Below, in pieces: positions 12,721-32,220 of a DNA stretch of 33,613 nucleotides. Under the pieces are notes generated by a model. That model was not told the origin of the DNA and searched no databases. It saw only the letters and a list, made by a program, of their open reading frames with translations. The DNA is from a virus, in IMG/VR virus record IMGVR_UViG_3300027710_000958, positions 1 to 33,613 of that record; one strand, given 5' to 3'. Both the position numbers and the translations under genes were made by a program. Position 1 is the stretch's first letter. Every line of letters begins with the position of its first letter.

Positions 12721-14985
12721 ATGTCAGTATTCAATCACACTCCTTTAGTTTGGGAAATCAACCCAGACCTTGATCCTCAAATGACCTTTGAGGAGTTTAC
12801 CTTCCTACCTCACGAACTTGGCAGTAGCAGTAGTCCTTTTAAATTAGTTTGGTATATTGATCCTCGGGTGAATCCACTAGAAGAAAAAGTGTGGGCAATG
12901 TCTTGTTATCGTAAAGGTGCTGACTACAGGTATTCAAAAGACATGGGCTACATTATGCCCGAAATTAATGTAGAAATAAACCCAGATGTTAATGCTTTTA
13001 CATTTGATGTAGATGTATGTTATCCTGCATTCTGGGAGTTGGATACCTATAAGATATATAAGTTAGATCCTGAATATGCTGACCGTACGAAGCAATGGAT
13101 AGTTAAGTTTAGTCCAAAGTACAAAACTGTTACGAAATGGGAATGGGCTGGAACGATTTCACCTACGTTTGAAATTGTGACAAATCCTGCACTTCCTAAG
13201 TTTAACTACGATCTTGATTACCGTATTCCTTTACATGATCTGTGCTACGAACATGTATGGTATCTCGATAAAAAACTTAGTAAAGAAAAAGTATGGGCAG
13301 TAAAGGTTACTCCTAGTGCAAAAATCACAGGTCGTAAAGAAATGGGAGAAGTTATCCCGGTATTGGAAGATCTAGATGTTGTATTCATTTCGTACAACGA
13401 GCCCAATGCAGAAGAAAATTGGCAGCGTGTTTTAGAAAAAGCTCCACAAGCAAAAAGAGTAGACGGCGTCAAAGGAATCTTCAACGCACACAGAGCAGCG
13501 GCCGAAGTAGCAGATACAGATATGTTCTATGTAGTTGATGGCGATGCATTCCTGGAAGACAGTTGGGATTTTGGATTCCAGCCAGGTATCTTCGACAGGG
13601 ATTGTACATACATCTGGCAGAGTCGTAACCCAGTTAACGATTTAGTATATGGGTATGGTGGTGTTAAATTATTCCCTAAGAGTGCATTACTTAAAATGAA
13701 ACAATGGACAACTTTAGATTTGTCTACTACAGTTGTTCCTAAGTTAAAGGTAATGGATGGCATTAGTAATGTAACAGCATTCAACACAGATCCATTTAGC
13801 ACTTGGCGCAGTGCATTTAGAGAAGTTGTTAAACTTTGTAACAACATAAAAAATAATCCAGACGATTCTGTATCTAAGGACAGAATAAATATCTGGGAAA
13901 CAACAGGTGATAAAATTTTCGGCAAATACTCAATCTCCGGTGCAAAGGCCGGCAAACAATTCTTTGAATCAGCTGACGACTTAACCAAGATTAATGATAG
14001 AGACTATCTACAATCTTTATTTGACAAACAAGAAAAGAGTCGCTATCCTTATATCAAGTTAGTTCATTCTAATCCTACACACCAGGAATGGTTTGTGGTT
14101 AACTGGTGCTTAGGTAATACTTGTAATTTTAAATGCAGTTATTGTCCTACAGATCTTCACAATGCTACGAACCCATGGCCTGAGCTAGATGCTATCAAGA
14201 ACTTTATCTTGCAAGTAAAAGCAGCCCATCCTAATAAAAAGATATACTTTGAGTTTACTGGCGGCGAAGTTACATTGTACAAACACTTTATTGAAGTGTG
14301 CAAGTTTTGCACAGAGCAAGGTGTTCGTGTAGGACTTATCAGCAATGGTAGTAGAACATTACGTTGGTGGGAAGAAAACAAACAATACTTTGATCATGTG
14401 TGTCTAAGTTTCCATCCTGAGTTTGCAGATGAGAAACACTTTATTGAAGTTGTTAAAATTCTACACGATGACTTGCGTACACATGTAAACATTATGATGA
14501 GTCCGGAAAAGTTTGACTTCTGTTATGCTGTGGCTAACAAAGTTAAAAACATTGGCAACATCTCAATGGCATTACAACCATTAATTCATGACTTCGGCGA
14601 AGTACTATACGAATACAACGAATTTCAAAAGAAGATATTTGAAAAGCAACACGAGCTAATTGTTAAGCATATCAAATACACAAAGAGCTTTGACTACTAC
14701 AGAGGTGCAATGCAAACTGTAGCAGCTGATGGATCTACAAGAGTTGCCAGCGCACATAGATTCATTAGTGAGAAAGCTAACGATTGGTCCGGTTGGAAAT
14801 GTTATGCAGGAGTAGAACAATTGATTGTTGATATGGACGGAACCGTACGCCGCGGATGGTGTAAGGTTGGAGAGAACATTGGAAACATACATGATGAACA
14901 ATTGACTCTACCTACAGAACCTGTCGTTTGCGATAAGACAATGTGCCACTGTAACTTTGATATTATGTGTACAAAAGAACTATGA
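12721..14985 (+). CDS. Repeat domain / glycosyltransferase-like / radical SAM / SPASM-like fusion (754 aa)
   Basis: Four regions. Residues 1-215 hold about 2.5 repeats of about 70 aa with the pattern 'vWyLDp....vWavk..p......mG.i.P....' (for example KVWAMSCYRKG, QWIVKFSPKYK, KVWAVKVTPSA). Residues 215-370 look like a GT-A type glycosyltransferase (DVVFISYNEPNAEENW; FYVVDGDAFLEDSW with a DxD-like DGDA at about 272-275). Residues 460-680 are a radical SAM core: C468, C472, C475 in CNFKCSYC, and FTGGEVT. The C-terminus is a cysteine domain (C-x19-C-x22-C-x4-C-x-C) like an auxiliary Fe-S (SPASM-type) domain. Reaction unknown. The combination of a sugar-transferase-like domain with radical SAM in one chain is unusual. 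It is the first radical SAM gene of the plus operon and its stop overlaps the next start (ATGA). Confidence 0.85.
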   Translation: MSVFNHTPLVWEINPDLDPQMTFEEFTFLPHELGSSSSPFKLVWYIDPRVNPLEEKVWAMSCYRKGADYRYSKDMGYIMPEINVEINPDVNAFTFDVDVCYPAFWELDTYKIYKLDPEYADRTKQWIVKFSPKYKTVTKWEWAGTISPTFEIVTNPALPKFNYDLDYRIPLHDLCYEHVWYLDKKLSKEKVWAVKVTPSAKITGRKEMGEVIPVLEDLDVVFISYNEPNAEENWQRVLEKAPQAKRVDGVKGIFNAHRAAAEVADTDMFYVVDGDAFLEDSWDFGFQPGIFDRDCTYIWQSRNPVNDLVYGYGGVKLFPKSALLKMKQWTTLDLSTTVVPKLKVMDGISNVTAFNTDPFSTWRSAFREVVKLCNNIKNNPDDSVSKDRINIWETTGDKIFGKYSISGAKAGKQFFESADDLTKINDRDYLQSLFDKQEKSRYPYIKLVHSNPTHQEWFVVNWCLGNTCNFKCSYCPTDLHNATNPWPELDAIKNFILQVKAAHPNKKIYFEFTGGEVTLYKHFIEVCKFCTEQGVRVGLISNGSRTLRWWEENKQYFDHVCLSFHPEFADEKHFIEVVKILHDDLRTHVNIMMSPEKFDFCYAVANKVKNIGNISMALQPLIHDFGEVLYEYNEFQKKIFEKQHELIVKHIKYTKSFDYYRGAMQTVAADGSTRVASAHRFISEKANDWSGWKCYAGVEQLIVDMDGTVRRGWCKVGENIGNIHDEQLTLPTEPVVCDKTMCHCNFDIMCTKEL

Positions 14986-16400
14986 ACGAAAAATTAATTC
15001 CTATTATTCCTATAAGAGAAAAGACACGAGATCCAATTGATACCGTTTGCGAGTTCAAATGGAACTATCCTATATTTCAAATGGATCGTGGTGAGTTTAG
15101 AAGCTGTTGTCGTACACCCTCCTATACTGTAACCGAAGAAGAATTGCAAGCCAAAGGTCCTAATGCATTTTTGGATAGCGATCGTTTGAAGAAAAGCAGA
15201 ATGGATTTAATTAAAGGAGTCAGGAACGAAGATTGTCGTAGTTGCTGGAACTTAGAAGACCAGGGAATGACTAGTCCACGTATTCCAGAAAACTTCTGGC
15301 ATTTCATGAGAAGGGCTGGAATGATTTCAAAAGAAAATCTAGATAAAGAATACCATCCTGATATCATTAGGACAGAACTTGCTAGAGTTACTTCAATGGA
15401 TGATCGTTTCTTAAATGCAAATAGACCCTACATGCTTGAACTTAGTCTAGGTAATACCTGCGATATGAAATGCATGTATTGTAATCATCACTACAGTAGT
15501 CAATGGGCATCTGAGATGATTAAGAATGGCGAGATTACACAAGAGCAATACGATAGAGAACTACCTAAGCCTGCTCCTAGTTTTGAAACTAATTTTTGGA
15601 AATGGTTTGACACAGTAGGTAGACTACACATACATCGTATTAATATAATTGGTGGCGAACCGTTGATCATTCCTAAGTTTTATGAATACGTAGAATTAAT
15701 GAAAGAGAAGATAGCAATGGTAAAGGATCACTTACCATCAACTATCAAACCTACTCTATGTATTGTTACTAACCTAAATACACCTCCAAACTATTTTAAT
15801 AGATTCATGGATAGACTTGAAGCATTCACAGAAGTATTTGACATTGAGATCTTAATCAGTGCAGAGAGTCTCGGTGCTAGAGCAGAGTACATTCGTAATG
15901 GCGTAGATTGGGAAAGGTTTGAATCAAACATCCATAAACTATTTGCACGTAAAGATGTAAAGTTTACACTAGGATTCTTAATGAGTATTAACGCATTGAG
16001 TATTGCGACTACTAAAGATTTTGTACAATGGGCAACTGAGTTGTCTAAAAAATATGACAGGACCGTACACTTCAAACAAAATATTGTTAATTACCCATTG
16101 TGGCAAGCACCAATGTTGCTACCACCTGAGTTTGCAAAGTATGTAGATGATGCAATTGAATACATGGAACAACATGTTGACAGTATGCCAATTGCTACAG
16201 ACTTCTCAGGAAGATATGATCAGTACATTATATTTTTAAAGAGCTTGTCTGATAGTTTGAAAAACAACACAGCCGACCATACTGCCAACAGAAAGATATT
16301 TCATCATTGGTTCAAGCAGTTTGATGAAAAGAGAAAATTAAACTTTGAAGAAACATTCCCAGAGTATGTTCAATTTTCAAAATACTGTGAGAAGCTATAA
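14982..16400 (+). CDS. Radical SAM protein with N-terminal twitch-type domain (472 aa)
   Basis: Start MNEKLIPIIP at 14982, overlapping the previous stop as ATGA; a frame extension to 14967 is less likely. The N-terminal auxiliary domain has C23, C42, C43, C85 and C88 (SCCRTPSY; CRSCWNLEDQG). The radical SAM core has C160, C164, C167 (CDMKCMYC) binding the [4Fe-4S] that cleaves SAM, then IIGGEPLIIPKF for SAM binding. Family motif ARAEYIRNGV...WERFESNI follows. Twitch/SPASM enzymes carry one or two extra Fe-S clusters and modify peptides, proteins or sugars. Substrate unknown. Ends in FEETFPEY, shared with the next two paralogues. Confidence 0.9.
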   Translation: MNEKLIPIIPIREKTRDPIDTVCEFKWNYPIFQMDRGEFRSCCRTPSYTVTEEELQAKGPNAFLDSDRLKKSRMDLIKGVRNEDCRSCWNLEDQGMTSPRIPENFWHFMRRAGMISKENLDKEYHPDIIRTELARVTSMDDRFLNANRPYMLELSLGNTCDMKCMYCNHHYSSQWASEMIKNGEITQEQYDRELPKPAPSFETNFWKWFDTVGRLHIHRINIIGGEPLIIPKFYEYVELMKEKIAMVKDHLPSTIKPTLCIVTNLNTPPNYFNRFMDRLEAFTEVFDIEILISAESLGARAEYIRNGVDWERFESNIHKLFARKDVKFTLGFLMSINALSIATTKDFVQWATELSKKYDRTVHFKQNIVNYPLWQAPMLLPPEFAKYVDDAIEYMEQHVDSMPIATDFSGRYDQYIIFLKSLSDSLKNNTADHTANRKIFHHWFKQFDEKRKLNFEETFPEYVQFSKYCEKL

Positions 16401-17779
16401 TGGACAAAAAACAATACGTTCCTATCATACAGGTAACTGGCAGTAGCAGTATTAAAGACAAACTACGTATTGCCAAGGACCTAGACAAAGAATTTGGTTT
16501 AGGATTAACACCTGTAGTAGCTAATCAATCTCCTGCATATATTAAGAACCTTAGAGCATTGGTTCCTGAAAACTTTTGTGTGTATCCTTTTATACATCTA
16601 CAAATTGATCCTGATGGTCGTGCTCGCCCTTGTTGTAAGTACAAGGTAGGAGATGCATCGTGGCAGAATGATGTTCCTAAGTTACCAGATGTTAACATTG
16701 ACGAGTTGTGGCATCAACCAGAGTTGCAGGAACTACGAGGACAGTTTATTCGTAACGAAAGACCGTCAGGGTGCAAAGCCTGTTGGGACGAAGAAAAAGC
16801 AGGTATGCAGAGTATGCGGAAATATGAAGAAGGAGGAACGTTGTATCCAGAAACAACGTTCTTTGCACATATCCCTCGTCACTCGCCTAAGAGCTTAGAT
16901 TTAAAATTAAGTAACCTATGTAATCTTAAATGTAGAATCTGTACTCCTTTCCTAAGTAGTCAATGGATCAAAGAACACAAAGATTTAAACTTAGCAGATG
17001 CTAATGTTATTAAAATGTACACTGACAACTCTCGGGAGAAGTTGTTCAAAGATCCTATCAATGCAGAGATACTACAAACATGGGCAAAGAATATTGACCA
17101 CTTAGAGTTCTACGGCGGTGAACCATTACTACAGCAAGAGCATGAACAAGTTCTTTCTATTATCAATGAGTTTGGTAATCCTGCACAAACAAAGATATGG
17201 TACAATACCAACACAACTATTTGCGAAGAAAAGTTTTTTAAAGTGTGGAAGAACTTTAATGAGATTACCATTAGTCTAAGCATAGATGATATTGCTCAAC
17301 GATTTGAATATCAACGCATGAATGCAAAATGGATAGAAACACTTGAAAACATAAACAAGTTTAAGTCGTTTGGTAAAGAATACAATGTCAACTTGAAACT
17401 ACAAGTGTATGTTACTGTTGGATCTTTGAATGTATTTTATCTTAAAGAGCTGATTGAATTTGTAAGAGATAACTTAGATCTGCCAATAGTGTTCAATATG
17501 GTACATTACCCTCACCATTATAGTATTGTAAACCTACCAGAGTCTGTAAAATTAGTGGTAGCAGAAAAACTACGTTCTATTGATTTATCTACAGTTACTA
17601 TGTTAGAGTGGTCTCCTACTATTGATAACTTAATAAGGTTTATGAATGATAGGACATGTAATCAAGATGAATTAACAAAGTTCTTTGATACAACAAAATT
17701 ACATGATGAATATAGGAAACAAGAGTTTGCAGAAACATTTCCTGAGTTGTATAGTTTATTGAAGGAACATAATGTCTGA
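16400..17779 (+). CDS. Radical SAM protein with N-terminal twitch-type domain (459 aa)
   Basis: Begins MDKKQYVPIIQVTGSSSIKD. The auxiliary domain has C60, C78, C79, C125 and C128 (FCVYPFIHLQIDPDGRARPC; CKACWDEEKAGM). The core has C174, C178, C181 (CNLKCRIC), then EFYGGEPLL and a family motif RFEYQRMNAKW. The C-terminal motif VHYPHHYSIVNLP recurs in several paralogues. An extra 50-residue N-terminal segment precedes the auxiliary domain. The start overlaps the previous stop (TAATGG), so it is coupled. Its GGEP segment binds the SAM amino group by family knowledge; substrate unknown. Confidence 0.9.
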   Translation: MDKKQYVPIIQVTGSSSIKDKLRIAKDLDKEFGLGLTPVVANQSPAYIKNLRALVPENFCVYPFIHLQIDPDGRARPCCKYKVGDASWQNDVPKLPDVNIDELWHQPELQELRGQFIRNERPSGCKACWDEEKAGMQSMRKYEEGGTLYPETTFFAHIPRHSPKSLDLKLSNLCNLKCRICTPFLSSQWIKEHKDLNLADANVIKMYTDNSREKLFKDPINAEILQTWAKNIDHLEFYGGEPLLQQEHEQVLSIINEFGNPAQTKIWYNTNTTICEEKFFKVWKNFNEITISLSIDDIAQRFEYQRMNAKWIETLENINKFKSFGKEYNVNLKLQVYVTVGSLNVFYLKELIEFVRDNLDLPIVFNMVHYPHHYSIVNLPESVKLVVAEKLRSIDLSTVTMLEWSPTIDNLIRFMNDRTCNQDELTKFFDTTKLHDEYRKQEFAETFPELYSLLKEHNV

Positions 17780-18944
17780 TACGTTTTGTGCATTGCCTTG
17801 GATAAATCTGTCTACAGATGTTAATGGCTCGTTGCGTCCTTGCTGTAAATTTGCACAACCTAGTCCAACTAACGAATATCAACTGCCAAATATGAAAGAC
17901 GGCAGTTTGGATATTGTGTGGAATGACATTAAGTTTCAGGAGTTACGTCAAGCATTCTTAGATGGTAAGAAGCCACGAGAATGTCAAAGCTGTTGGGACG
18001 AAGAGGCAGCAGGTATTCCTTCGTTTAGATTACAATTTGCCAAAGACAAAAAGATTAACACATCAGGCATGGAGTTTAATCGTATAGCAACAGCTGGTCC
18101 AAAAGCAATAGACTTTAAACTTAATAATGTATGCAATTTAAAATGCAGAATATGTGGTCCACAGGCAAGCTCTACATTCCTTAAAGAGTATCAAGAAATA
18201 TACAATATTAAAGTTGAGGATGGTGCATATTGGTTATCTAATAAAATATTAGGAACAGCCAACGAAGATGTAATTCGACAATGGGCACAGGATCTTGTGC
18301 ATTTAGAAATTACCGGAGGCGAGCCAATGGCAAGCCCGGAGAACATTAAAGTATTAGAGTTGTTGATAAATGAAGGCAGAGCGAGATACATTACTATCTT
18401 GCTTAATACCAACGGAACATTGTATAATAAAAAGTTCCTAGACTTGATTGTACAGTTTAAAGAAGTGACAATGTGTGTTTCTATTGATGACTTAGGAACT
18501 CGTTTAGAATACGAACGTTACCCTGCTGAATGGAATGTAGTGCAAGAAAACATTAAGAAGTTTGCAGCATTACGTGATCAACACAGTAATATATTCCTTA
18601 CATTGTGTCCAACTGTAAGCATCTTTAATGTTTACTTCTTGCCAGACTATCTAGAATGGGCAAAGAGCATTGGGTTCTTTACGTACTATAACATATTACA
18701 TTATCCTCCTAACCACAGCATTAAAAACTTACCTGATAAGATAAAAGACATTGTGTCTGCAAGATTAACAGCACCTGAATTTGATACTGTAAAAAACTTT
18801 TTACATTTATCATGCGACAATGCATCTCTTGTTGAAGAATTTATTAAACTAAATGAAGAACGAGATATGGTACGAGGACAGGACTTTCATAAGACGTTTG
18901 GAGAATGGGCAGCATTGTTGAATGAGTATAGAGCGAATGAATAA
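17772..18944 (+). CDS. Radical SAM protein with N-terminal twitch-type domain (390 aa)
   Basis: Begins MSDTFCALPWINLSTDVNGS, the most typical form of the phage twitch family. Auxiliary Cys at 6, 24, 25, 71 and 74 (LRPCCKF; ECQSCWDEEAAGI). Core C121, C125, C128 (CNLKCRIC), ITGGEPMASPENI, then DDLGTRLEYERYPAEW and a LHYPPNHSIKNLP segment. Overlaps the previous gene by 8 bases. Closely related to the gene before it (same order of motifs, same CWDEE.AG). Probably a paralogue produced by duplication. Substrate unknown. Confidence 0.92.
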   Translation: MSDTFCALPWINLSTDVNGSLRPCCKFAQPSPTNEYQLPNMKDGSLDIVWNDIKFQELRQAFLDGKKPRECQSCWDEEAAGIPSFRLQFAKDKKINTSGMEFNRIATAGPKAIDFKLNNVCNLKCRICGPQASSTFLKEYQEIYNIKVEDGAYWLSNKILGTANEDVIRQWAQDLVHLEITGGEPMASPENIKVLELLINEGRARYITILLNTNGTLYNKKFLDLIVQFKEVTMCVSIDDLGTRLEYERYPAEWNVVQENIKKFAALRDQHSNIFLTLCPTVSIFNVYFLPDYLEWAKSIGFFTYYNILHYPPNHSIKNLPDKIKDIVSARLTAPEFDTVKNFLHLSCDNASLVEEFIKLNEERDMVRGQDFHKTFGEWAALLNEYRANE

Positions 18945-20079
18945 ATTAACAACAACACAAATTGAAGAGTACAATATCAAACGACAACAGTTTGATATGA
19001 ACAGGACAATTAATAAAATCAGTCCGTGTGTTGCTCCTTATAATAACATGTACTTTACCACAGAAGGTAATGTTGCACCTTGCTGGTTGTTAGTAGGACA
19101 TTTAGATAAGTGGAGTCCTACACGCAGTATAAAAGATATCTGGTTTGGTGAGAAGTTTACTGAGTATAGGAACAATCTTAAAGAAGGTATCTTCAACAGC
19201 GATTGTAGAGTATGCAAACAAAAGATTGAAGCAGATACATGGCCGCTGGCATTGGCATATGATGGGTTCAGTATAAAAGAATATCCTACGTTACTAGAGT
19301 TAGAACTTAGCAATCAATGTAATCTTGAATGTGTTATGTGCGAAGGCAGATTGAGTTCTGGTATACGCAAGAATAGAGAACAGCTACCTCCAATGCCACA
19401 GGTATACGATGACAGTTTTGTAGAACAGTTAAAAGAGTTTATTCCTCATTTAGAAGAATTACGATTTAACGGCGGTGAACCTTTTGCACAAAAGATTGTA
19501 TATGATATCTGTATGTTGGTTGCAGAGATTAATCCTGGACTACGAATTAACATTGCCACTAACGGTACTGTATATAATAAACAGGTTAGAGCAATATTAG
19601 AAAAATGTAATGTAAGTTTAAATATCAGCATTGATAGTTTAGATAAAGAAAACTACGAGTCAATTCGTATTAATGGAAACTTTGATGACCTAATGGAAAA
19701 CTTTGCAACATTTAATCAGTACTGCAAAGACAACGACAGAGGTTTGAGTGTAATGGTTAATCCAATGCGTACCAATTGGTGGGAAATGCCCGAGTTTGTT
19801 AAGTTTACAACAGAGAATAAAGTACACCTTTGGTATAATACTATTCACCATCCTGAACATTTAGGCATTTGGAATTTGCCTGCATCCGATCTAAGTGTTA
19901 TTATGCAAACACTAGAGCCACAAGTTGAAGAATTAAAACCAGGTGAAACTGATAATCATGTTGCACATGGTAATTGGGAAAAACTTAATCACTTTGTTCA
20001 TAAACAAGTTTCCAATTGGCATTCTAAACAATTGCTAAGAGAGCAAGAGAAGAAAGTTATTGAAATTAAACCTATATGA
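18937..20079 (+). CDS. Radical SAM protein with N-terminal twitch-type domain (380 aa)
   Basis: Start MNKLTTTQIEEYNIKRQ at 18937 overlaps the previous stop; an in-frame ATG at 18922 is the alternative. Auxiliary Cys at 31, 49, 90 and 93 (GNVAPCW; DCRVC), with only one Cys where the others have CC. Core C128, C132, C135 (CNLECVMC), RFNGGEPFAQ, NIATNGT and SIDSLDKENYESIR. The C-terminal IHHPEHLGIWNLP matches the HYP...NLP motif of its neighbours. Overlaps the SGNH-type hydrolase gene by 4 bases (ATGA). Likely the same pathway; substrate unknown. Confidence 0.9.
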   Translation: MNKLTTTQIEEYNIKRQQFDMNRTINKISPCVAPYNNMYFTTEGNVAPCWLLVGHLDKWSPTRSIKDIWFGEKFTEYRNNLKEGIFNSDCRVCKQKIEADTWPLALAYDGFSIKEYPTLLELELSNQCNLECVMCEGRLSSGIRKNREQLPPMPQVYDDSFVEQLKEFIPHLEELRFNGGEPFAQKIVYDICMLVAEINPGLRINIATNGTVYNKQVRAILEKCNVSLNISIDSLDKENYESIRINGNFDDLMENFATFNQYCKDNDRGLSVMVNPMRTNWWEMPEFVKFTTENKVHLWYNTIHHPEHLGIWNLPASDLSVIMQTLEPQVEELKPGETDNHVAHGNWEKLNHFVHKQVSNWHSKQLLREQEKKVIEIKPI

Positions 20080-20909
20080 AAACTTTGTTATTCAACGGAT
20101 GTAGCTTTATGGCCGGAGATTGTTTTGCATGGGAACAATTCCATAAAGAACATAATAGACCATTTAAAGACTGGCTAGAAGAATCTTCCCCTGAAGAGTT
20201 TGAATTTAGAAAAGAGTATTTAGAGTATCGCAAGAATATTAATCTAACTGGACTTATTGGTAAACAACTAGGATTAGATAAAATTGATATCTCTGAAGAT
20301 GGAAAGAGTAATGAACATATTGCACTTGAGACTATTGCCTATATACAATCTATACCACCTGAACAAAGACAACAGTATCATGTTGTAATAGGATGGACTG
20401 CAATTTCTAGGGTAATGAAGTATTCTACTGTTTCAAATACATTTATTGATTTAACAATAGGTCATTATCAGATTAATGATCCAGATCCTACTAAGGCAAA
20501 CTTAGATGATTATATTAAGGCAAGGATAATTGATGCAGATATTCATGACTCTGTTATGGATTACGTTAGAAGTATAATGTTATTAGAAAACTTCTTGAAG
20601 TGTAATAATATGACTTATACATTTTTTAGAAGTGTTGATAATCCCATTGATCCTGAACTAAAAATAGGACCATTTTCGTTCCTGCAGGCTTATACAATTG
20701 AACAACTTAATGTAACTGATCATTCTAAATGGTATAAGTTTATACCTGACTTTGATAATAATTATTTTCCATTTGCAGGGCATTCGTGGGCATCAATTAT
20801 TAACTTTAATCCAGAATTGATAATAGCTAATAACAATCCACACCCTAATCAACGTACAATAGAAAAGTTTGCAAATGAGCTTGCAAACTTTATTCCATCT
20901 ACGTTTTAA
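20076..20909 (+). CDS. SGNH/GDSL-type hydrolase-like protein (277 aa)
   Basis: Begins MKTLLFNGCSFMAGDCFAWE: GCSF.AGD is the block I of SGNH hydrolases with Ser10 as probable nucleophile. EDGKSNEHIALETI (N79) corresponds to the G..N block, VVIGWTAISRV follows, and PHPNQRTIEKFANELANFI (H256) carries the C-terminal catalytic His. In phages such proteins are usually annotated as SGNH hydrolases or acetyltransferase-like esterases acting on O-acyl groups of sugars. A role in removing or moving acyl groups on a glycan would fit the neighbouring genes, but this is inference. Last gene of the plus operon; its stop overlaps the stop of the convergent gene. Confidence 0.8.
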   Translation: MKTLLFNGCSFMAGDCFAWEQFHKEHNRPFKDWLEESSPEEFEFRKEYLEYRKNINLTGLIGKQLGLDKIDISEDGKSNEHIALETIAYIQSIPPEQRQQYHVVIGWTAISRVMKYSTVSNTFIDLTIGHYQINDPDPTKANLDDYIKARIIDADIHDSVMDYVRSIMLLENFLKCNNMTYTFFRSVDNPIDPELKIGPFSFLQAYTIEQLNVTDHSKWYKFIPDFDNNYFPFAGHSWASIINFNPELIIANNNPHPNQRTIEKFANELANFIPSTF

Positions 20910-23476: not shown

Positions 23477-23489
23477 ATGTTTAGTTATT

Positions 23490-24620
23490 TTAATTTAGGT
23501 TGGGTATTTGTATTTTAGGATAGTTCATTACTTCTGGCAAAGCTAATATATCTTTAACTTGGTTATGTTTCGTAGAACTTGCACCCCATACGGCTTTTTG
23601 ATCAAACACTTCTTGTTTGTAGGTTCCCCAGTTTAGTATATTGACAATGTATATCTCTGGAAGGTTGTCTGGATATTGATATGCTAACTTGATTAATTCG
23701 GGAATAGATTCAAAATTATCTTCTTGCAATACAACATTCCATGCCCATGTTTTATTAGGATTATCTTTTAAAGTGTTTTTGTACAGATAGTTAATGTTGT
23801 CCCATAGCAGTTCCCAGTCTCCACCGCAACGAACTTTATCGTAACTTTCTTTGTTACCGGCATCTATGCTAATCCTGATTCCTCTTAGTCTATCAAACAG
23901 ATTGCTGTATTTTTGTTGGATCTTCTCTGTCATCATAACACCGTTTGTACATAATACTACTTTGAAGTTAGGCCACTTCTCTGGATTATGAAATACTTCT
24001 TCTGTATCAAATATTTCTCTATACACAGGACTAAAAAATATCTCGCCATATCCATCAAATGTCATTGTTATAGATTTGTCATGCGGTGTGTTAAACACTG
24101 ACTTAAATGCTGTCCTTAAAATAGTCAATGCTTTGTTATGTGCCACAGGATCTAGCGTTCCTATACGGGAAGTTCTACAACTAGGGCAAACTAAATTGCA
24201 AGTATTGTCAATTGAAAATGCTATGTTCTTAGGATACTCATTTTGCGGATCAACAAAGGTAGACTTAGGAACAATGCGTGGCCCGCCACCTGCTGACATT
24301 GCAGGACATGTCTTTGCATTGCAGTATTTGTATGTTCCATCTGTAATAGAGTTTCTAATCGTCCTTGCTTTTTCGCTATTCCACATGGCGTTTAGATCTT
24401 CTGTCAACAGATTACCTATTGATGCTGGGTTCCATCCAGGGCAACACATATGTACGTTGCCGTTTCCTTGCACTTCAATATCGTTAAATGGTAAGTCGCA
24501 AATAAATTCGTTTTTATCAAACTTACATGACTCAGGAGAATCGTATTCTTCATATTGCAACTCTCCTAGAACAGGATCTTTAATTATCCTCCTCTTTAGA
24601 TGAATACTGTATTCTCTCAT
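23490..24620 (-). CDS. Radical SAM protein with N-terminal twitch-type domain, altered GGEP (376 aa)
   Basis: Begins MREYSIHLKRRIIKDPVLGE. Auxiliary Cys at 41, 59, 60, 100 and 105 (NVHMCCPGW; YCNAKTCP). Core C141, C145, C148 (CNLVCPSC). At the SAM-binding position it has TFDGYGEIFFS instead of GGEP, the usual form being lost while G and E remain. LCTNGVMM and ISIDAGNKESYDKVRCGGDW follow. More divergent than its neighbours, so it may act on a different substrate. The next gene upstream overlaps it by 4 bases. Confidence 0.88.
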   Translation of the reverse strand: MREYSIHLKRRIIKDPVLGELQYEEYDSPESCKFDKNEFICDLPFNDIEVQGNGNVHMCCPGWNPASIGNLLTEDLNAMWNSEKARTIRNSITDGTYKYCNAKTCPAMSAGGGPRIVPKSTFVDPQNEYPKNIAFSIDNTCNLVCPSCRTSRIGTLDPVAHNKALTILRTAFKSVFNTPHDKSITMTFDGYGEIFFSPVYREIFDTEEVFHNPEKWPNFKVVLCTNGVMMTEKIQQKYSNLFDRLRGIRISIDAGNKESYDKVRCGGDWELLWDNINYLYKNTLKDNPNKTWAWNVVLQEDNFESIPELIKLAYQYPDNLPEIYIVNILNWGTYKQEVFDQKAVWGASSTKHNQVKDILALPEVMNYPKIQIPNLN

Positions 24621-25840
24621 TTTGGTTTTATCTCGTTGGTTAGTTGGGGCACAATATTTAATATGTTGTTGCCTCTAACTGTTTCCATTAGCTCAGTATA
24701 CTCAACCCATTGTTTATGTACTTCATCGCCTAAGTAACTATTTTTTAAAGTATTGATAACAACATCGAACTCGTTGTTCATATTGTTTGCTGTATAATAT
24801 TCAACTAACTCTGCTCGTGTACTATCTGATAAAGTATTAACAGACAAGTACGGAGGACTTTGAACAGTGTTTTGGAATCCTAATTCTGCAACAATGTTAT
24901 TGTATTTTTTAGATAATCCTACAAACCAATCTCTAATTTCTACTAGATGGAATGCATTGTAATTCATAGTTGATGTACTAGAACGTATACTGATATTTGA
25001 CAATGTGCTTACTTGTGCAATTACAGGCTCTATGTCACTAAACTTAGCATCGCCATATCTGATATAATTGAATAGGTCTCCGACACCATCTACTGAGATT
25101 AGGAATTCAACATGTTTACATTTACCTAGTAGTTCTATAATTTCTTGTGTAATATAAGTTCCGTTTGTCACAACAAAGACAGTTATGTTTACTAACAATC
25201 CTTGCTCGTTCATGTACTTTAATACTGATGTGGTTTCAGCGTTAAGCAATGGCTCTCCGCCTTTAAAATTAATTGTTCTAATGTTTGAAAGATCAAGTTG
25301 CCTTAAATTTTCAACAACCAATTCTGGATTAGGTAGATGCATTTTTGTTGTTTGGTGTCTAGCTTCATCATTGAGCTCTACAACAGATCTAAATCTATGT
25401 AACCTTTCTTTTTTATCAGTGTCATAAGTGTTGATAAGGTTCCTTACTTTTTTACTTTCAATTACCCATTTGCTACTAAACCCTGCATGACAATGCAAGC
25501 AAGCTAAGTTGCATATATTACTTCCGTTAAATTCTAAGTAGACTGGTTTTTCTTCTTCCCACCCTGTTACATCGATGCTTCCTTCTGTGTATGCTTTTCT
25601 AAGACTGAAGCCGGTATTGTCTTCTGTATTCTTACAAGGAATGCATTCAATGGGCCACTCCTTATTATACATCTGCTGTTTTAATTGTTTCCATCTCTCA
25701 CTGCTGATTATTTCAGTAATAGATTGTTCTTTCAAGTTACCTAAAAATTTACCTTCAAAGAAACAACACGGACGAATACCCTTGTTTGTATCTATCAACA
25801 CAGACGCCAATGGTGCTGTGCATAAAACGTTATTAATCAT
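24617..25840 (-). CDS. Radical SAM protein with N-terminal twitch-type domain (407 aa), copy A
   Basis: Begins MINNVLCTAPLASVLIDTNK. Auxiliary Cys at 7, 25, 26, 66 and 69 (IRPCCFFEGK; ECIPCKN). Core C110, C114, C117 (CNLACLHC), then NFKGGEPLLNAET, SVDGVGDLFNYIRYGD and the tail NTLSDSTRAELVEYY. The C-terminal VRGNNILNIVPQL is shared with copy B at 25833-27059: same Cys positions, same order throughout. A tandem duplication of the gene explains both. Substrate unknown. Confidence 0.92.
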   Translation of the reverse strand: MINNVLCTAPLASVLIDTNKGIRPCCFFEGKFLGNLKEQSITEIISSERWKQLKQQMYNKEWPIECIPCKNTEDNTGFSLRKAYTEGSIDVTGWEEEKPVYLEFNGSNICNLACLHCHAGFSSKWVIESKKVRNLINTYDTDKKERLHRFRSVVELNDEARHQTTKMHLPNPELVVENLRQLDLSNIRTINFKGGEPLLNAETTSVLKYMNEQGLLVNITVFVVTNGTYITQEIIELLGKCKHVEFLISVDGVGDLFNYIRYGDAKFSDIEPVIAQVSTLSNISIRSSTSTMNYNAFHLVEIRDWFVGLSKKYNNIVAELGFQNTVQSPPYLSVNTLSDSTRAELVEYYTANNMNNEFDVVINTLKNSYLGDEVHKQWVEYTELMETVRGNNILNIVPQLTNEIKPK

Positions 25841-27059
25841 TTCTGTACTTTAATTCTGATTCTAGTTGGGGAACAATATCTAATATATTGTTACCTCTAA
25901 CAGTCTGCATTAGCTCTGTATAGTCAACCCACATGTTATGCACATTGTTTCCTGCATACGATCCTTCGAGTGTGTTGATAACTTGTTTGAATTCGGTGTG
26001 ATCTATATTCTTATAGTGTTCTATTAACTGTTGTCTTGTGCTATCTGATAGAGTTTGTAATGACAGATAGTTTGGATGTTGTACACAATTTGCATAGCCT
26101 CCTTCTTTCCTAACTGTTTTATATTTGGTAGACAATTGACTTACCCACTCTCTAATTTCTGCTAGATTGAATATGTTGTAATTCATAACAGCAGTTTGAC
26201 ACTCAATTTTAATGTTAGGTAGTTCGTTTAATTTTGCAATTACAGGCTCTATGTCACTAAACTTGGCATCGCCATATCTGATATAATTGAATAGGTCTCC
26301 AACTCCGTCTAGTGACAAATTAAACAAAATAGATTTACACTTCTTAAAGGCTTCAATGATTGCTGGATTGATATATGTTCCGTTACTAGACAATATAATA
26401 CGCACGTTAGGTAGTATAGATTGCTCATCTAAGTAATTTAATATTGCCAGTGTTTCAGAGTTAAGCAACGGCTCTCCGCCTTTGAAATTAATTGTTTTAA
26501 GATTTGTTAAATCTAATCCTTTTAAGTTTTCAATAATAAGCGAAGGATCGGGCAAATGCATCTTAGTCGAACGATCAGTTGTATCATTAGTATATTCAAT
26601 AACAGCATCAATGTGGCTGATACGATACTTCTTTGTATCATCCATTGTTGAAAGTACCTTTTGTGCTTTCTTGTTATCAATTACCCAACGACTACTGAAT
26701 CCAGGAGTACAATGTAGGCATGCGAGATTGCAAATATTACTTCCGTTGAATTCTAGATAAGTTAACTTTTCTTCTTCCCAACCATCTATGTCAAAACTTC
26801 CATCTGTAAACAATGTTCGAACACTCCAGTCTGACACTTGTTCTCGTTCTTTGCATTGTGTACATCCAGGCGCCCACTCATTACTATACATTTGTTGTTT
26901 GAGTGTTTTCCACTCTGTACTATTAATAATATTAACAAGTGGTTGTTCTTTAATATTACCTATGTAGTTAGGAGTATAAACACAACAAGGTCTGACACCT
27001 TTGTTGGTGTCAATCAATGCTGCCGTTAGTGGTGCTGTACACAGAACTTTATTAATCAT
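25833..27059 (-). CDS. Radical SAM protein with N-terminal twitch-type domain (408 aa), copy B
   Basis: Start MINKVLCTAPLTAALIDTNK at 27059, overlapping the oxygenase stop (ATGA); the longer frame to 27077 lies inside that gene. Auxiliary Cys at 7, 25, 26, 66 and 69 and core C110, C114, C117 (CNLACLHC) match copy A residue for residue. NFKGGEPLLNSET follows. A stretch of about 65 bases (about 26234-26300) is almost identical in DNA to copy A (about 25015-25080), although the genes otherwise differ considerably. Probably a paralogue kept for a related substrate or step. Confidence 0.92.
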   Translation of the reverse strand: MINKVLCTAPLTAALIDTNKGVRPCCVYTPNYIGNIKEQPLVNIINSTEWKTLKQQMYSNEWAPGCTQCKEREQVSDWSVRTLFTDGSFDIDGWEEEKLTYLEFNGSNICNLACLHCTPGFSSRWVIDNKKAQKVLSTMDDTKKYRISHIDAVIEYTNDTTDRSTKMHLPDPSLIIENLKGLDLTNLKTINFKGGEPLLNSETLAILNYLDEQSILPNVRIILSSNGTYINPAIIEAFKKCKSILFNLSLDGVGDLFNYIRYGDAKFSDIEPVIAKLNELPNIKIECQTAVMNYNIFNLAEIREWVSQLSTKYKTVRKEGGYANCVQHPNYLSLQTLSDSTRQQLIEHYKNIDHTEFKQVINTLEGSYAGNNVHNMWVDYTELMQTVRGNNILDIVPQLESELKYRND

Positions 27060-27718
27060 AAAGGCAATAAAGACCACCCAATGAGTGCTCTTTTTTCAAA
27101 TATCTTTTTTATTGCAAAATTATCACTACAATGGAACGATGTTCTAGGCATTGCTAATAGATTACCTTTTTTCCATGGAAATATAATATCAATAGAAAAG
27201 TAACTAATTAGTTCTTCACTTTCATGTGTTAGATATTGTTGATATATATCTTTGCTAATTGAGTGTTGCGGTACTCTGGATTCGTGTTCGATCCAATTGT
27301 TTGATAACTTTGTTCTTGCACTTCCTTCGTTAAACACAATTGTGTTGGTGTCATAATCGTCTAGTGGAATTAAAAATGTCCATCCAAATTCATAACCATC
27401 CGGCAAAGAATGTATATGAGCATCAACGATATCATCTAACGAATCTGTGTGTATTCCATATGGCCTATACCCATTTAAGATGTGCCAGTTATCACATTCA
27501 TTTTTTCCAAATACTACATTTATTTTTTCGTTGATAGAATCACATAACTTGTTTTTATAACTAGGTCCAGGATAACAATACAATGCCTGTGCTTGTTCTC
27601 CTGGAAGCCATAATATTGGTTCGATCCATAGCTTAGTATCTGTGTTGGCTCTAAACCCTTTCTCAATATCGAACAACTCATCCTCAGTTAAAAAATTTTC
27701 AATAACTGTGGCTTTCAT
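27056..27718 (-). CDS. 2OG-Fe(II) oxygenase-like protein (220 aa)
   Basis: Begins MKATVIENFLTEDELFDIEK, a start typical of the prolyl-hydroxylase-like group. The iron triad is visible: H90 and D92 in YGIHTDSLDD and H196 in MPRTSFHCSDNF; R210 near the end (KRALIGWSLL) would hold 2-oxoglutarate. PWKKGNLLAMPRTSFHCS is the usual strand before the distal His. Such enzymes hydroxylate proteins, sugars, lipids or nucleotides using O2. It lies between two radical SAM genes with overlapping ends, so it probably works in the same pathway. Substrate unknown. Confidence 0.85.
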   Translation of the reverse strand: MKATVIENFLTEDELFDIEKGFRANTDTKLWIEPILWLPGEQAQALYCYPGPSYKNKLCDSINEKINVVFGKNECDNWHILNGYRPYGIHTDSLDDIVDAHIHSLPDGYEFGWTFLIPLDDYDTNTIVFNEGSARTKLSNNWIEHESRVPQHSISKDIYQQYLTHESEELISYFSIDIIFPWKKGNLLAMPRTSFHCSDNFAIKKIFEKRALIGWSLLPL

Positions 27719-28758
27719 TTACGATCCCCAAACAATATGTAATCTTCTTTAGTATACCCATCCATCACCTCGCTACCAGACTTTAAGTTTGGTGCGCTGT
27801 TCTTGTTGTCAAGGTCACCGCGAATAGGAACAATGGCCCATGTACAGTAATCCTTGAAGTACGGTAATGCTTTAAGTTCTTCTTCTAGTGCCAAGGTCTC
27901 TTCTCTGTTGTGAGGAGCCATCATAAACTTAACTTCTAAATGTCCGCACCCTTCTACAGTTGCTTTCTCATGTGCTACCGCTTCTACTACCTTAACAAAC
28001 TTAGCACGATCATAAAACTCAAAGTGTACGCTTAGGTTAAGATCACCGTAATGAATAACTTCTCTGTAATAGTCAGGCAAGCGACTTCCGTTACTGTGTA
28101 AGCTGACATGATGTCCCATTACATTTAAGTAACGCAACCAGTCTAAGAAGTTCTTGTTGGCAGTAGGTTCACCGCCGGAGATAATAAAGTTAACTGATTC
28201 ACCTTTGGTAAAGTGCTTCTCTAAGTTATGTGTGGCGTGCATTAGTTCTTCTAATGACTTATGTCTATCAGTGTTGTTATGGATCCACGGCCAGCAGTAT
28301 GAGCAATCGTAATTACATCTACGGCTAATTTCCCAATAGATTTGTTTTTGTGTGCTGGCGTGTGTTCGCTCCATTGCCACAAACTCTGTAAGCTCGTCGT
28401 TACGAAGTTCGGATTGAACCGGTAGTCCTTGACCTTTACGTAACAACGGGCGGAATTCGATCTTCTGTGTCTTAGGAATAAACAAGTCTGCACCACAGGA
28501 GCAGTTGTTTCTTGTGCAGTCAATCCACGATTCCGGCACTCTAAAATCTTCAAATACGTTACCAAGTGGTCCGCCTACTCTACAGCTAGCAGTCCACACG
28601 CCTCCGTCCATATCAATAAACAGACTATCTACACCTGCTCCACACTTCCAGCCTGTGATGTAATTTAACTTTGCACCTACTAATTCGTCCGTGCTCCAGT
28701 CACGCCATTGTCCGTTTTCTGCGTATGTTCTAATAGGTTTACCGGGTGTTTGGTCCAT
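27715..28758 (-). CDS. Radical SAM protein with N-terminal auxiliary Cys domain (347 aa)
   Basis: Begins MDQTPGKPIRTYAENGQWRD. The N-terminal 95 residues hold C39, C59, C81, C86 and C88 (GWKCGAGVDSLFIDMDGGV; CTRNNCSCG). This same domain with nearly the same spacing (C-x19-C-x21-C-x4-C-x-C) lies at the C-terminus of the 754-aa fusion at 12721-14985. The core follows with C148, C152, C155 (CNYDCSYC), IISGGEPTANKNFL and LHSNGSRL. Hence the auxiliary domain is on the opposite side of the core in the two proteins. First gene of the minus operon; AAGGATAAAAA precedes the ATG and a late-type promoter candidate is just upstream. Substrate unknown. Confidence 0.9.
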   Translation of the reverse strand: MDQTPGKPIRTYAENGQWRDWSTDELVGAKLNYITGWKCGAGVDSLFIDMDGGVWTASCRVGGPLGNVFEDFRVPESWIDCTRNNCSCGADLFIPKTQKIEFRPLLRKGQGLPVQSELRNDELTEFVAMERTHASTQKQIYWEISRRCNYDCSYCWPWIHNNTDRHKSLEELMHATHNLEKHFTKGESVNFIISGGEPTANKNFLDWLRYLNVMGHHVSLHSNGSRLPDYYREVIHYGDLNLSVHFEFYDRAKFVKVVEAVAHEKATVEGCGHLEVKFMMAPHNREETLALEEELKALPYFKDYCTWAIVPIRGDLDNKNSAPNLKSGSEVMDGYTKEDYILFGDRK

Positions 28759-28813: not shown

Positions 28814-28927
28814 ATGCACAACTTTTTACAATTTTTAAAGAATCCATACCGGTGGTATGTTAATCGTAAGTTACTAAAGAAACGACTTGAAGACTTACGT
28901 AACCGCGACCCGTTTATCTACAAATGA
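28814..28927 (+). CDS. Small basic phage peptide (37 aa)
   Basis: Reads MHNFLQFLKNPYRWYVNRKL, then LKKRLEDLRNRDPFIYK. Amphipathic and strongly basic. The stop overlaps the start of the carbamoyltransferase-like gene (ATGA), which supports a real, coupled gene. By memory, the RDPFIY ending occurs in other small phage proteins. Could be a partner of the carbamoyltransferase-like protein or a modification target; neither is shown. Confidence 0.65.
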   Translation: MHNFLQFLKNPYRWYVNRKLLKKRLEDLRNRDPFIYK

Positions 28928-29871
28928 TACATTGGGGAGTTAACGCACTTAATCACGGCAGCAGCCTTGCTATATTTGACAATGGCAAGCTGGTAGGTAC
29001 TTCGGTTGACGAAACAGATGATACGCTTCGTAAACTAACCAGTACAGCATTGTTTAGAGGATGGGAGCCAGATCGTATCTTTTGGTACGAGCAACCTTGG
29101 ATAAAGAAAGCAAGACAAATAAAGGCCGGACAATACAACACAGCATTTGATATGAGTGTGTTGCCTAGTCGTAGCTTGAAGAAGCAAGGCCTTGGAGGCA
29201 TACCTATTACATATACTCCGCATCATGCTAGTCATGCAGCCGCCGGATACTATACAAGTCCATTTAATCACTGTGCCATAGTAGTATTAGATGCGATTGG
29301 GGAGTTTGAGTGTGCTAGTATTTGGGAAGGTAAACACGGTGAAATAAAGAAAGTATGGAGCCGCAGTTATCCTCATAGTTTAGGATTGTTCTATTCTGCC
29401 TTTACCAAGTTTGTTGGACTACAACCTATCCGTGATGAATACCTGTTCCAGCAGATGGCAGAGCGCGGCAATCCTAAGCGATTCAAAGATACTATAGCAA
29501 TGTACTTTAAACCAGGTATTATGGAATTGGATTACAATTTCCATCGAGGTATCCGTAATTGGAGTTGCGAAACATGGTCTGAACAAGAGAAGTGTGACCT
29601 TGCTGCCGCTGTGCAAGAGATGTTCGAGTTTCAAGTAGAAATGGTTATGTTCAAAGCCAAGCAATTTATTAAGACCAACAACCTAGTCTACATGGGTGGG
29701 TGTGCTATGAATAGTCGTGCTAATAAACAAGTTGTGAAAAATTTTGATTACACATGGAGCCTGCCTAATCCTGGAGATCCTAGTAGTGCAATGGGTGCTG
29801 TTCTGTATCATACTAAACAACGAGTGTGGCAGGAATGGCCTGCTGTTAAACATATTGAGATTAAAGTATGA
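28924..29871 (+). CDS. Carbamoyltransferase N-domain protein (NodU/CmcH-like), 315 aa
   Basis: Begins MIHWGVNALNHGSSLAIFDN, the ASKHA-fold start of the NodU/CmcH family. ITYTPHHASHAAAGYYTSPF carries the His cluster (H100, H101, H104); VVLDAIGEFE has the metal/phosphate Asp123; YMGGCAMNSRANK is the second phosphate loop. In this family the N-domain moves a carbamoyl group from carbamoyl-AMP onto sugar hydroxyls, while a separate YrdC-like C-domain makes carbamoyl-AMP. At 315 aa only the N-domain is present, as in other phage versions, so activity would need another protein or the reaction has changed. Its gene lies beside a methyltransferase and the radical SAM operons. Confidence 0.85.
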   Translation: MIHWGVNALNHGSSLAIFDNGKLVGTSVDETDDTLRKLTSTALFRGWEPDRIFWYEQPWIKKARQIKAGQYNTAFDMSVLPSRSLKKQGLGGIPITYTPHHASHAAAGYYTSPFNHCAIVVLDAIGEFECASIWEGKHGEIKKVWSRSYPHSLGLFYSAFTKFVGLQPIRDEYLFQQMAERGNPKRFKDTIAMYFKPGIMELDYNFHRGIRNWSCETWSEQEKCDLAAAVQEMFEFQVEMVMFKAKQFIKTNNLVYMGGCAMNSRANKQVVKNFDYTWSLPNPGDPSSAMGAVLYHTKQRVWQEWPAVKHIEIKV

Positions 29872-31680: not shown

Positions 31681-31837
31681 ACTCCCATTGTATATGGATG
31701 ACTATAACAGTTATAAACGATTTACAAGAAAATGCAAGTGTGGGTGCGAACACCATTGCGGGCATAGTTGCTCAGATTGCGAATATTGCCCAGATTGCGA
31801 GTGCGAATCCTGCGTTGAAGGGCAAGGTCAAAATTAA
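31667..31837 (+). CDS. Metallothionein-like Cys-cluster protein (56 aa)
   Basis: Reads MTENKLPLYMDDYNSYKRFT, then a run of ten Cys in 29 residues with His at 29, 30 and 33 (KCKCGCEHHCGHSC; CEYCPDCECESC). The pattern of CxC, CxxC and CxHxxC is typical of metal-binding clusters (zinc, iron or copper). An alternative ATG at 31694 would give 47 aa. The stop overlaps the iscU start (TAATG), giving translational coupling to the Fe-S module. It is therefore a candidate iron or sulfur handler, metal store or Zn-finger-like partner; function is inferred only. Confidence 0.65.
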   Translation: MTENKLPLYMDDYNSYKRFTRKCKCGCEHHCGHSCSDCEYCPDCECESCVEGQGQN

Positions 31838-32220
31838 TGGCTTATTCCGATAAAGTAATTGATCATTATGAAAATCCAAGAAATGTAGGATCTTTTGAAA
31901 AAGATGATCCTACAATAGGCACCGGCATGGTCGGTGCACCTGCCTGCGGTGATGTAATGAAACTACAGATCAAGGTAAACAATGAAGGCATCATTGAAGA
32001 CGCAAAGTTTAAAACGTACGGATGTGGTTCCGCAATCGCAAGTTCATCACTCGTTACGGAGTGGGTCAAAGGTAAGACGTTGGCAGAAGCAGGATCTATT
32101 AAGAATTCTGAGATCGCCGAACATCTTGCACTCCCCCCAGTTAAAATACATTGCTCAATTCTTGCTGAAGACGCGATCAAAGCGGCTGTAAATGATTACC
32201 GTAACAGACACGGCATCTAA
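31837..32220 (+). CDS. iscU: Fe-S cluster assembly scaffold IscU (127 aa)
   Basis: Begins MAYSDKVIDHYENPRNVGSF, as in bacterial IscU, and is nearly the same length (128 in E. coli). The cluster-binding residues are all present: C37 with D39 (ACGDVM), C63 (KTYGCGSAIASSS), H105 and C106 (KIHCSILAEDAI). LPPVK at 99-103 is the binding motif for the HscA chaperone, so host HscA/HscB should still be able to use it. It receives sulfur from IscS and iron to build [2Fe-2S]. First of three Fe-S genes; the iscA start lies inside its last 29 bases. The close similarity to the bacterial protein suggests recent gain from a proteobacterial host. Confidence 0.96.
   Translation: MAYSDKVIDHYENPRNVGSFEKDDPTIGTGMVGAPACGDVMKLQIKVNNEGIIEDAKFKTYGCGSAIASSSLVTEWVKGKTLAEAGSIKNSEIAEHLALPPVKIHCSILAEDAIKAAVNDYRNRHGI

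Follow-up and report, generated by a model that had tools for sequence, protein, structure and literature searches.

The 347-aa radical SAM protein described here is best explained as the product of a natural circular permutation in a radical SAM/twitch enzyme with two domains. The permutation would have arisen through one, perhaps two, old events in an ancestor having the radical SAM core first and the auxiliary cysteine domain second (core-aux), by way of split or tandem intermediates, and the protein probably modifies a glycan; we put the probability of this explanation as a whole at roughly three in four. The protein is encoded in IMG/VR record IMGVR_UViG_3300027710_000958, positions 1 to 33,613 (33,613 nt, viral), referred to below as the window, where the auxiliary (aux) domain of the 347-aa protein precedes its core (aux-core) and a 754-aa protein has the core-aux order (Table 1).

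Homologous domains in circularly permuted order

A preliminary description of this DNA had noted similarly spaced cysteines at opposite ends of the two proteins, and its spacings are exact. Specifically, Cys 39, 59, 81, 86 and 88 form C-x19-C-x21-C-x4-C-x-C at the N-terminus of the 347-aa protein, and Cys 694, 714, 737, 742 and 744 form C-x19-C-x22-C-x4-C-x-C at the C-terminus of the 754-aa protein. The aux homology extends some 30 residues ahead of the first Cys and includes a ...N..GWKC.AGV...DMDG.V block; the shared region had been placed at about residue 690 of the 754-aa protein, where it is indeed present but starts near residue 664. Between residues 9-96 (347-aa protein) and 664-752 (754-aa protein) identity is 36% (blastp E 7e-15), and the observed alignment score of 155 stands at Z = 26 relative to 500 shuffles, the best of which reached 47. 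Family profiles of the aux domain in its aux-core and core-aux forms also match each other in hhalign (prob 99.9, E 4.7e-37), indicating that the two Cys domains are related, as had been supposed. The cores are likewise homologous, with 27% identity between residues 114-298 and 430-611 (E 2e-16, Z = 24 vs shuffles) and radical SAM motifs at C148-x3-C152-x2-C155 (CX3CX2C) and C468-x3-C472-x2-C475, respectively. When the 347-aa sequence was searched against the whole record, the 754 gene was matched as two pieces in swapped order, so the permuted order of homologous domains that had been proposed is real.

Searching a profile of 18 core-aux proteins against 15 aux-core proteins in their native order gave two swapped matches in every case. 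For the 347-aa protein these ran from residues 10-97 to profile positions 227-315 and from residues 139-298 to positions 21-173 (55.0 + 71.9 bits). Upon rotation in silico, all 15 gave a single collinear match, which ends at profile positions 273-292 where an aux insertion is present; the match of the rotated 347-aa protein covers positions 21-315 of 318 with 131.1 bits. Since swapped matches that become collinear after rotation define circular permutation, the 347-aa family is a true circular permutation relative to the core-aux family. The new chain ends lie in the loop between core and aux (core-aux positions ~207-226), a new linker of about 40 residues is present, and the new C-terminus of the 347-aa protein follows a '...VPIR...YT..' segment. 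A stop codon directly 5' of the ATG (stop-to-stop length 348) indicates that there is no hidden core upstream and that the aux domain is the true N-terminus.

In an alignment of 15 diverse aux-core members, C39, C81, C86, C88 and all three core cysteines are invariant, and Cys59 is retained in most members, with a 2-residue shift in the 'CNTAS' members. Purifying selection acts on both domains: dN is 0.02-0.17 for aux and for core while dS is saturated in most pairs, and dN of the linker exceeds that of aux or core in the majority of pairs. One aux-core subgroup (L118:7825-9255, L112:7265-8689, L074:5903-7153 and relatives) carries ~50-120 extra residues in the aux domain, inserted between Cys2 and Cys3, and in some of its members Cys2 is displaced by two residues.

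Table 1. Radical SAM genes of the window and the parts of the 754-aa and 347-aa proteins
Feature	Position	Strand	Evidence
754-aa core-aux radical SAM ORF	12721-14985	+	
754-aa protein, N-terminal part, residues 1-438, glycosyltransferase-like by eye (DxD)	12721..14034	+	
754-aa protein, radical SAM core, ~residues 439-650	14035..14670	+	Pfam PF04055 E 2.6e-11; AF2 model pLDDT 88.5
754-aa protein, aux Cys domain, residues 664-752, C-terminal to core	14710..14976	+	blastp, profile match
Four N_Twi_rSAM-type radical SAM genes (477, 459, 390, 385 aa)	14967..20079	+	NF033640 241, 329, 316, 162 bits, cut-off 170
B12-binding radical SAM protein, 856 aa	20906..23476	-	Pfam PF02310 + PF04055
Three N_Twi-like radical SAM genes (376, 407, 414 aa)	23490..27077	-	NF033640 58, 233, 236 bits; Pfam SPASM at N-terminus
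347-aa aux-core radical SAM ORF	27715-28758	-	
347-aa protein, radical SAM core, residues 138-347	27718..28347	-	Pfam PF04055 E 5.8e-16
347-aa protein, linker, residues 97-137, old C-terminus (aux end) to old N-terminus (core start)	28348..28470	-	between swapped profile matches
347-aa protein, aux (twitch-like) Cys domain, residues 9-96, N-terminal to core	28471..28734	-	blastp, profile match

Relatives were gathered from viral contigs and bacterial genomes, and every open frame was scored with the aux and core profiles. The resulting 291 loci hold 258 core-aux frames (including distant bacterial relatives), 130 aux-core frames and separate aux or core frames; beyond the 130, there are a few in which the ~50-120-residue insertion breaks the aux match. 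Separate core genes are ~230-260 aa long and separate aux genes ~95-145 aa, and this split state occurs in at least three lineages of the tree described below. In phages the two genes are adjacent in L251, L254, L268, L288, L247, L237 and L241 (the pairs listed include overlapping core and aux genes) and unlinked in L280 and L234; in Bdellovibrionota separate core and aux genes occur in L309, L310, L311 and L319. A search of a viral structure library with the 347 model returned an uncharacterised 100-aa phage protein, A0A6J5T420 (~98 columns, TM 0.82 by its own length), which by its length may be a stand-alone aux domain; the library also holds a 206-aa protein annotated as a radical SAM core. 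The Oligoflexia frames L143:5920-7890 and L143:1-1338, on a 216-kb contig, have two aux domains each, arranged as core-aux-long linker-aux and aux-aux. Among 50,697 phage records, tblastn found no match to the 347-aa protein and only a partial match, in Pelagibacter phage HTVC008M, to the radical SAM part of the 754-aa protein.

Age of the change of order and possible routes to it

The preliminary description had proposed a domain-wise phylogeny, and we built maximum-likelihood trees of both domains from 70 genes. The 28 aux-core proteins all lie on one side of a branch of the core tree (support 90/86), in a clade placed inside the core-aux/split family, and there are 4 changes of order overall as opposed to 28.5 with shuffled labels. 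The tree of the short aux domain (94 columns) agrees but is weak: 24 of the 28 group together (92/91), and the other four (L141, L234, L237, L241) group with two split genes (87/86). Here a single aux-core clade is not rejected (p 0.40), nor is a union of the 754 clade with the main aux-core group (p 0.29), whereas the core rejects a grouping of aux-core with the 754 clade (p 0.0075). Concatenating the two domains yields one aux-core clade (92/91). With N_Twi_rSAM cores added as an outgroup, aux-core nests within the core-aux and split genes, and the N_Twi cores form a clade of their own (97*). This tree placement, together with an NF033640 aux profile that does not align, indicates that the change of order is old, that it proceeded from core-aux, which looks to be the ancestral state with aux-core derived, and that it is independent of the known N-terminal twitch of NF033640. 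Judged from these trees, it was most simply a single event, or perhaps two.

The permutation had been read as an event between these two genes in one genome, but both orders are far older than the window. That domains were shuffled recently within this phage lineage, with a copy of a 754-type aux domain placed ahead of some other core, is very improbable: the two aux domains are clearly homologous, but the core tree rejects a union of the 347 subclade with the 754 clade (p 8e-7). Moreover, the aux and core trees both place the 347-aa protein with the same relatives (L038, L095, L220, L134, L135 and L123), and the aux alignment, too short to decide by itself (p 0.13), shows no sign of recent exchange. 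The suggestion that the aux domain moved as a module between existing genes finds no support in the trees. Least credible of all is a reading in which the 347-aa protein simply belongs, unpermuted, to N_Twi_rSAM (NF033640), an already described family whose twitch domain is N-terminal. Like the 347-aa protein, that family has an aux Cys domain N-terminal to the core and shares gene neighbourhoods with it, and its model matches the 347 core. In addition, seven window proteins are of N_Twi type with a SPASM-like domain, different from the 347/754 aux, N-terminal to their core, so an N-terminal position as such is not unusual here. However, the match reaches 28.3 bits, over the core only, against a curated cut-off of 170, the aux part is unmatched, the aux profiles have no detectable relation (hhalign prob 6.8 over 22 columns), and the 347-aa protein nests with core-aux and not in the separate N_Twi core clade.

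The route from core-aux to aux-core we infer indirectly, because none of the frames in the 291 loci has a core flanked by aux on either side. Both classic routes are open, fission with refusion being slightly better supported than tandem duplication. In the former, which is a special case of our preferred explanation and as such is given somewhat less than an even chance, core and aux became neighbouring genes and the aux then fused to the next downstream radical SAM core. The splitting and refusion raised in the preliminary description is made plausible by the split state itself, seen in at least three lineages, in phages as well as on Bdellovibrionota contigs. For example, the aux gene of L310 overlaps the next radical SAM gene, such that one frameshift could fuse the two, an aux-core gene lies directly 5' of the split core and aux in L237 and L241, and one split group joins the four stray aux-core proteins of the aux tree. 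Against this, the core and concatenated trees put the split genes in a sister group and not at the base of the aux-core clade, and split genes that arose at least three times may be side branches. Tandem duplication with trimming, where two core-aux units, fused or side by side, were pared down to the inner aux and core, appears to us a possible but less probable course. An 894-aa core-aux-core-aux-core-aux fusion does exist (L155:1802-4483, Omnitrophota MAG), and aux-core usually comes directly after core-aux on the same strand; but L155 is only distantly related (domain E-values 1e-3 to 1e-16), and no core-aux-core fusion was found near the aux-core clade.

In our preferred explanation, that of an old circular permutation, the 754-aa protein would keep the usual order, with a (beta/alpha)6 radical SAM core followed by a one-cluster twitch-like aux domain. 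In the 347 family the chain would have been opened in the core/aux loop and the old ends joined by the linker, through intermediates with separate core and aux genes or tandem copies, and both domains would since have been inherited together.

Predicted fold, known relatives and proposed function

The predicted models of the 347-aa (pLDDT 81) and 754-aa (pLDDT 88.5) proteins both have a six-stranded core and a small beta/loop aux domain. In Foldseek the top PDB match of the 754 core-aux model is BlsE 7vob, whole-length over 305 columns (E 1.6e-8), and the 347 aux-core model aligns to BlsE over 219 columns, roughly a core's length (E 1.7e-4), a shorter alignment that is expected because the order is broken. 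BlsE, DesII and BtrN are sugar-modifying twitch enzymes, and the latter two are also among the fold matches of the core-aux model. Both window proteins share with SPASM/Twitch enzymes (BlsE 7vob, EpeE, SkfB, BtrN, anSME) a CX3CX2C (beta/alpha)6 core and one Cys-rich aux domain. The aux domain follows the core in all SPASM/twitch structures that the SkfB paper (PMC6231123) describes, as it does in the 754 family, whereas in the 347 family it is N-terminal. The C-x-C near the aux end resembles Cys385/Cys387 of SkfB (PMC6231123). Pfam SPASM matched neither aux domain at E 0.1. The NF038073 model (STM4011 family) matches both proteins in two stretches with 28.6 (347) and 55.8 (754) bits relative to a cut-off of 200, the best stretch in the 347-aa protein joining residues 36-88 to positions 201-253 of 278, in the C-terminal part of the model. 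Viperin (NF038283) was rejected as an assignment, with 49.3 and 59.0 bits in the core region only vs a cut-off of 180.

We infer that both proteins are active enzymes in which the aux cluster domain would dock against one side of the barrel, the same for either domain order, and, judging from the split genes, perhaps in trans as well. Both most likely modify a sugar of a surface glycan, on the cell or flagellum in Bdellovibrionota and on the host surface or virion in phages. This tentative reading is drawn from a linked glycosyltransferase-like gene, the neighbouring N_Twi radical SAM enzymes, sugar-modifying enzymes among distant fold matches, flagellin neighbours in one case and the known phage-island link (PMC7029224). 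It is conceivable, though we think it unlikely, that the conserved and mostly neighbouring core-aux and aux-core genes specify a heterodimer whose chains complement each other. Their mirror-image connectivity would then permit aux docking in cis or in trans, one subunit's aux cluster would act with the other's radical SAM core, and the split genes would follow the same plan in trans.

There are precedents for N-terminal aux domains, for phage-borne radical SAM genes and for circular permutation in general. What is new, as far as the searched open-licence literature shows, is one radical SAM/aux pair in all three states (core-aux, aux-core and split); no paper on permuted radical SAM/twitch domains was found in that literature, which is weak evidence. 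An unrelated enzyme presents the same three states, lipoate-protein ligase, a two-domain enzyme with bipartite (LplA+LplB), fused Lpl(AB) and circularly permuted fused Lpl(BA) forms (PMC10332631). That one domain pair occurs as core-aux, as aux-core and as two genes, sometimes within one gene cluster, provides a natural experiment on whether an aux cluster domain must be covalently placed, and also on the role of the aux cluster, as the domain could be added, withheld or exchanged in the form of a free-standing protein. It is also a warning for annotation, as order-dependent family models score such proteins low or partially.

Gene neighbourhood and bacterial occurrence

Ten radical SAM genes lie within ~16 kb of the window (12721-28758), comprising the seven of N_Twi type, one B12-binding gene and the 347 and 754 genes. 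The C-terminus of the 856-aa B12-binding protein is a possible methyltransferase region (Methyltransf_24, E 0.04 only). A Pfam search of residues 1-438 of the 754-aa protein gave no match. The counterpart of its residues ~210-440 lies just upstream of the core-aux ORF in most related phages, and a bacterial homologue of the N-terminal part, L329:1490-3037 (phmmer E 6e-92), matches Pfam Glycos_transf_2 (E 6.9e-7); a putative glycosyltransferase-like gene is often linked to core-aux. Among viral contigs with a 347-like gene, 33 of 49 also carry a 754-like gene, and core-aux followed by aux-core within 150 nt on one strand was seen in 44 locus-level cases (some contigs being counted in more than one locus). 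N_Twi radical SAM genes near these genes score above the curated cut-off in 10 of 14 phage records and are also present in bacteria. Radical SAM cassettes with glycosyltransferases are likewise described for pelagimyophage host-recognition islands, variable regions near tail-fibre genes (PMC7029224).

Several other window genes may bear on this cluster. A NifU-like Fe-S cluster assembly protein (31837-32220; phrog_8429, E 2e-40) is encoded near it and may supply clusters to the window's Fe-S enzymes. A 315-aa carbamoyltransferase (28924-29871) matches only the N-terminal Pfam domain PF02543, and the 181-aa protein directly downstream has a homologue (E 2e-32) near the bacterial aux-core gene of L332. 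Upstream of the 754 gene, a 713-aa protein (10553-12694) with a Lys/Gly-rich stretch (KGKWKSGGKWKGGGKGKK) gave no Pfam or PHROG match; it may be a tail or surface component on which the enzymes of the cluster could act.

Near-full aux-core matches were present in 16 of 369 Bdellovibrionota genomes (G001-G009, G109, G207, G208, G216, G238, G241 and G351). At E <= 1e-35 there were none in 398 Pseudomonadota, 284 Myxococcota and 296 Bacteroidota genomes (0 of 978 sampled), a result that rejects aux-core as common in other phyla; one aux-core gene was found in a putative Gammaproteobacteria MAG (G384). This near restriction to Bdellovibrionota among the sampled cellular genomes hints that these predatory bacteria are hosts or gene partners of the phages, and shared radical SAM islands tie a group of large environmental phages to them. 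That the matches are phage contigs binned into MAGs was rejected for several of them: two contigs with aux-core genes measure 626 and 937 kb, which indicates that the genes are chromosomal there, a split pair lies on one of 917 kb, and further matches adjoin flagellin, MeaB, methylmalonyl-CoA mutase or GTP1/OBG genes.

A Pfam search of the neighbours of bacterial aux-core genes revealed no single recurring partner. The adjacent core-aux/aux-core pair is also found on the Bdellovibrionaceae contigs L133 and L134. In L133 (1725-8057, Bdellovibrionaceae MAG) it lies between two flagellin genes, beside a 608-aa protein that is SGNH-like by eye, and this flagellin context suggests flagellar modification. 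Finally, on the 917-kb Bdellovibrionota contig (L310 / L328), about ten N_Twi-type radical SAM genes surround the split core and aux pair.
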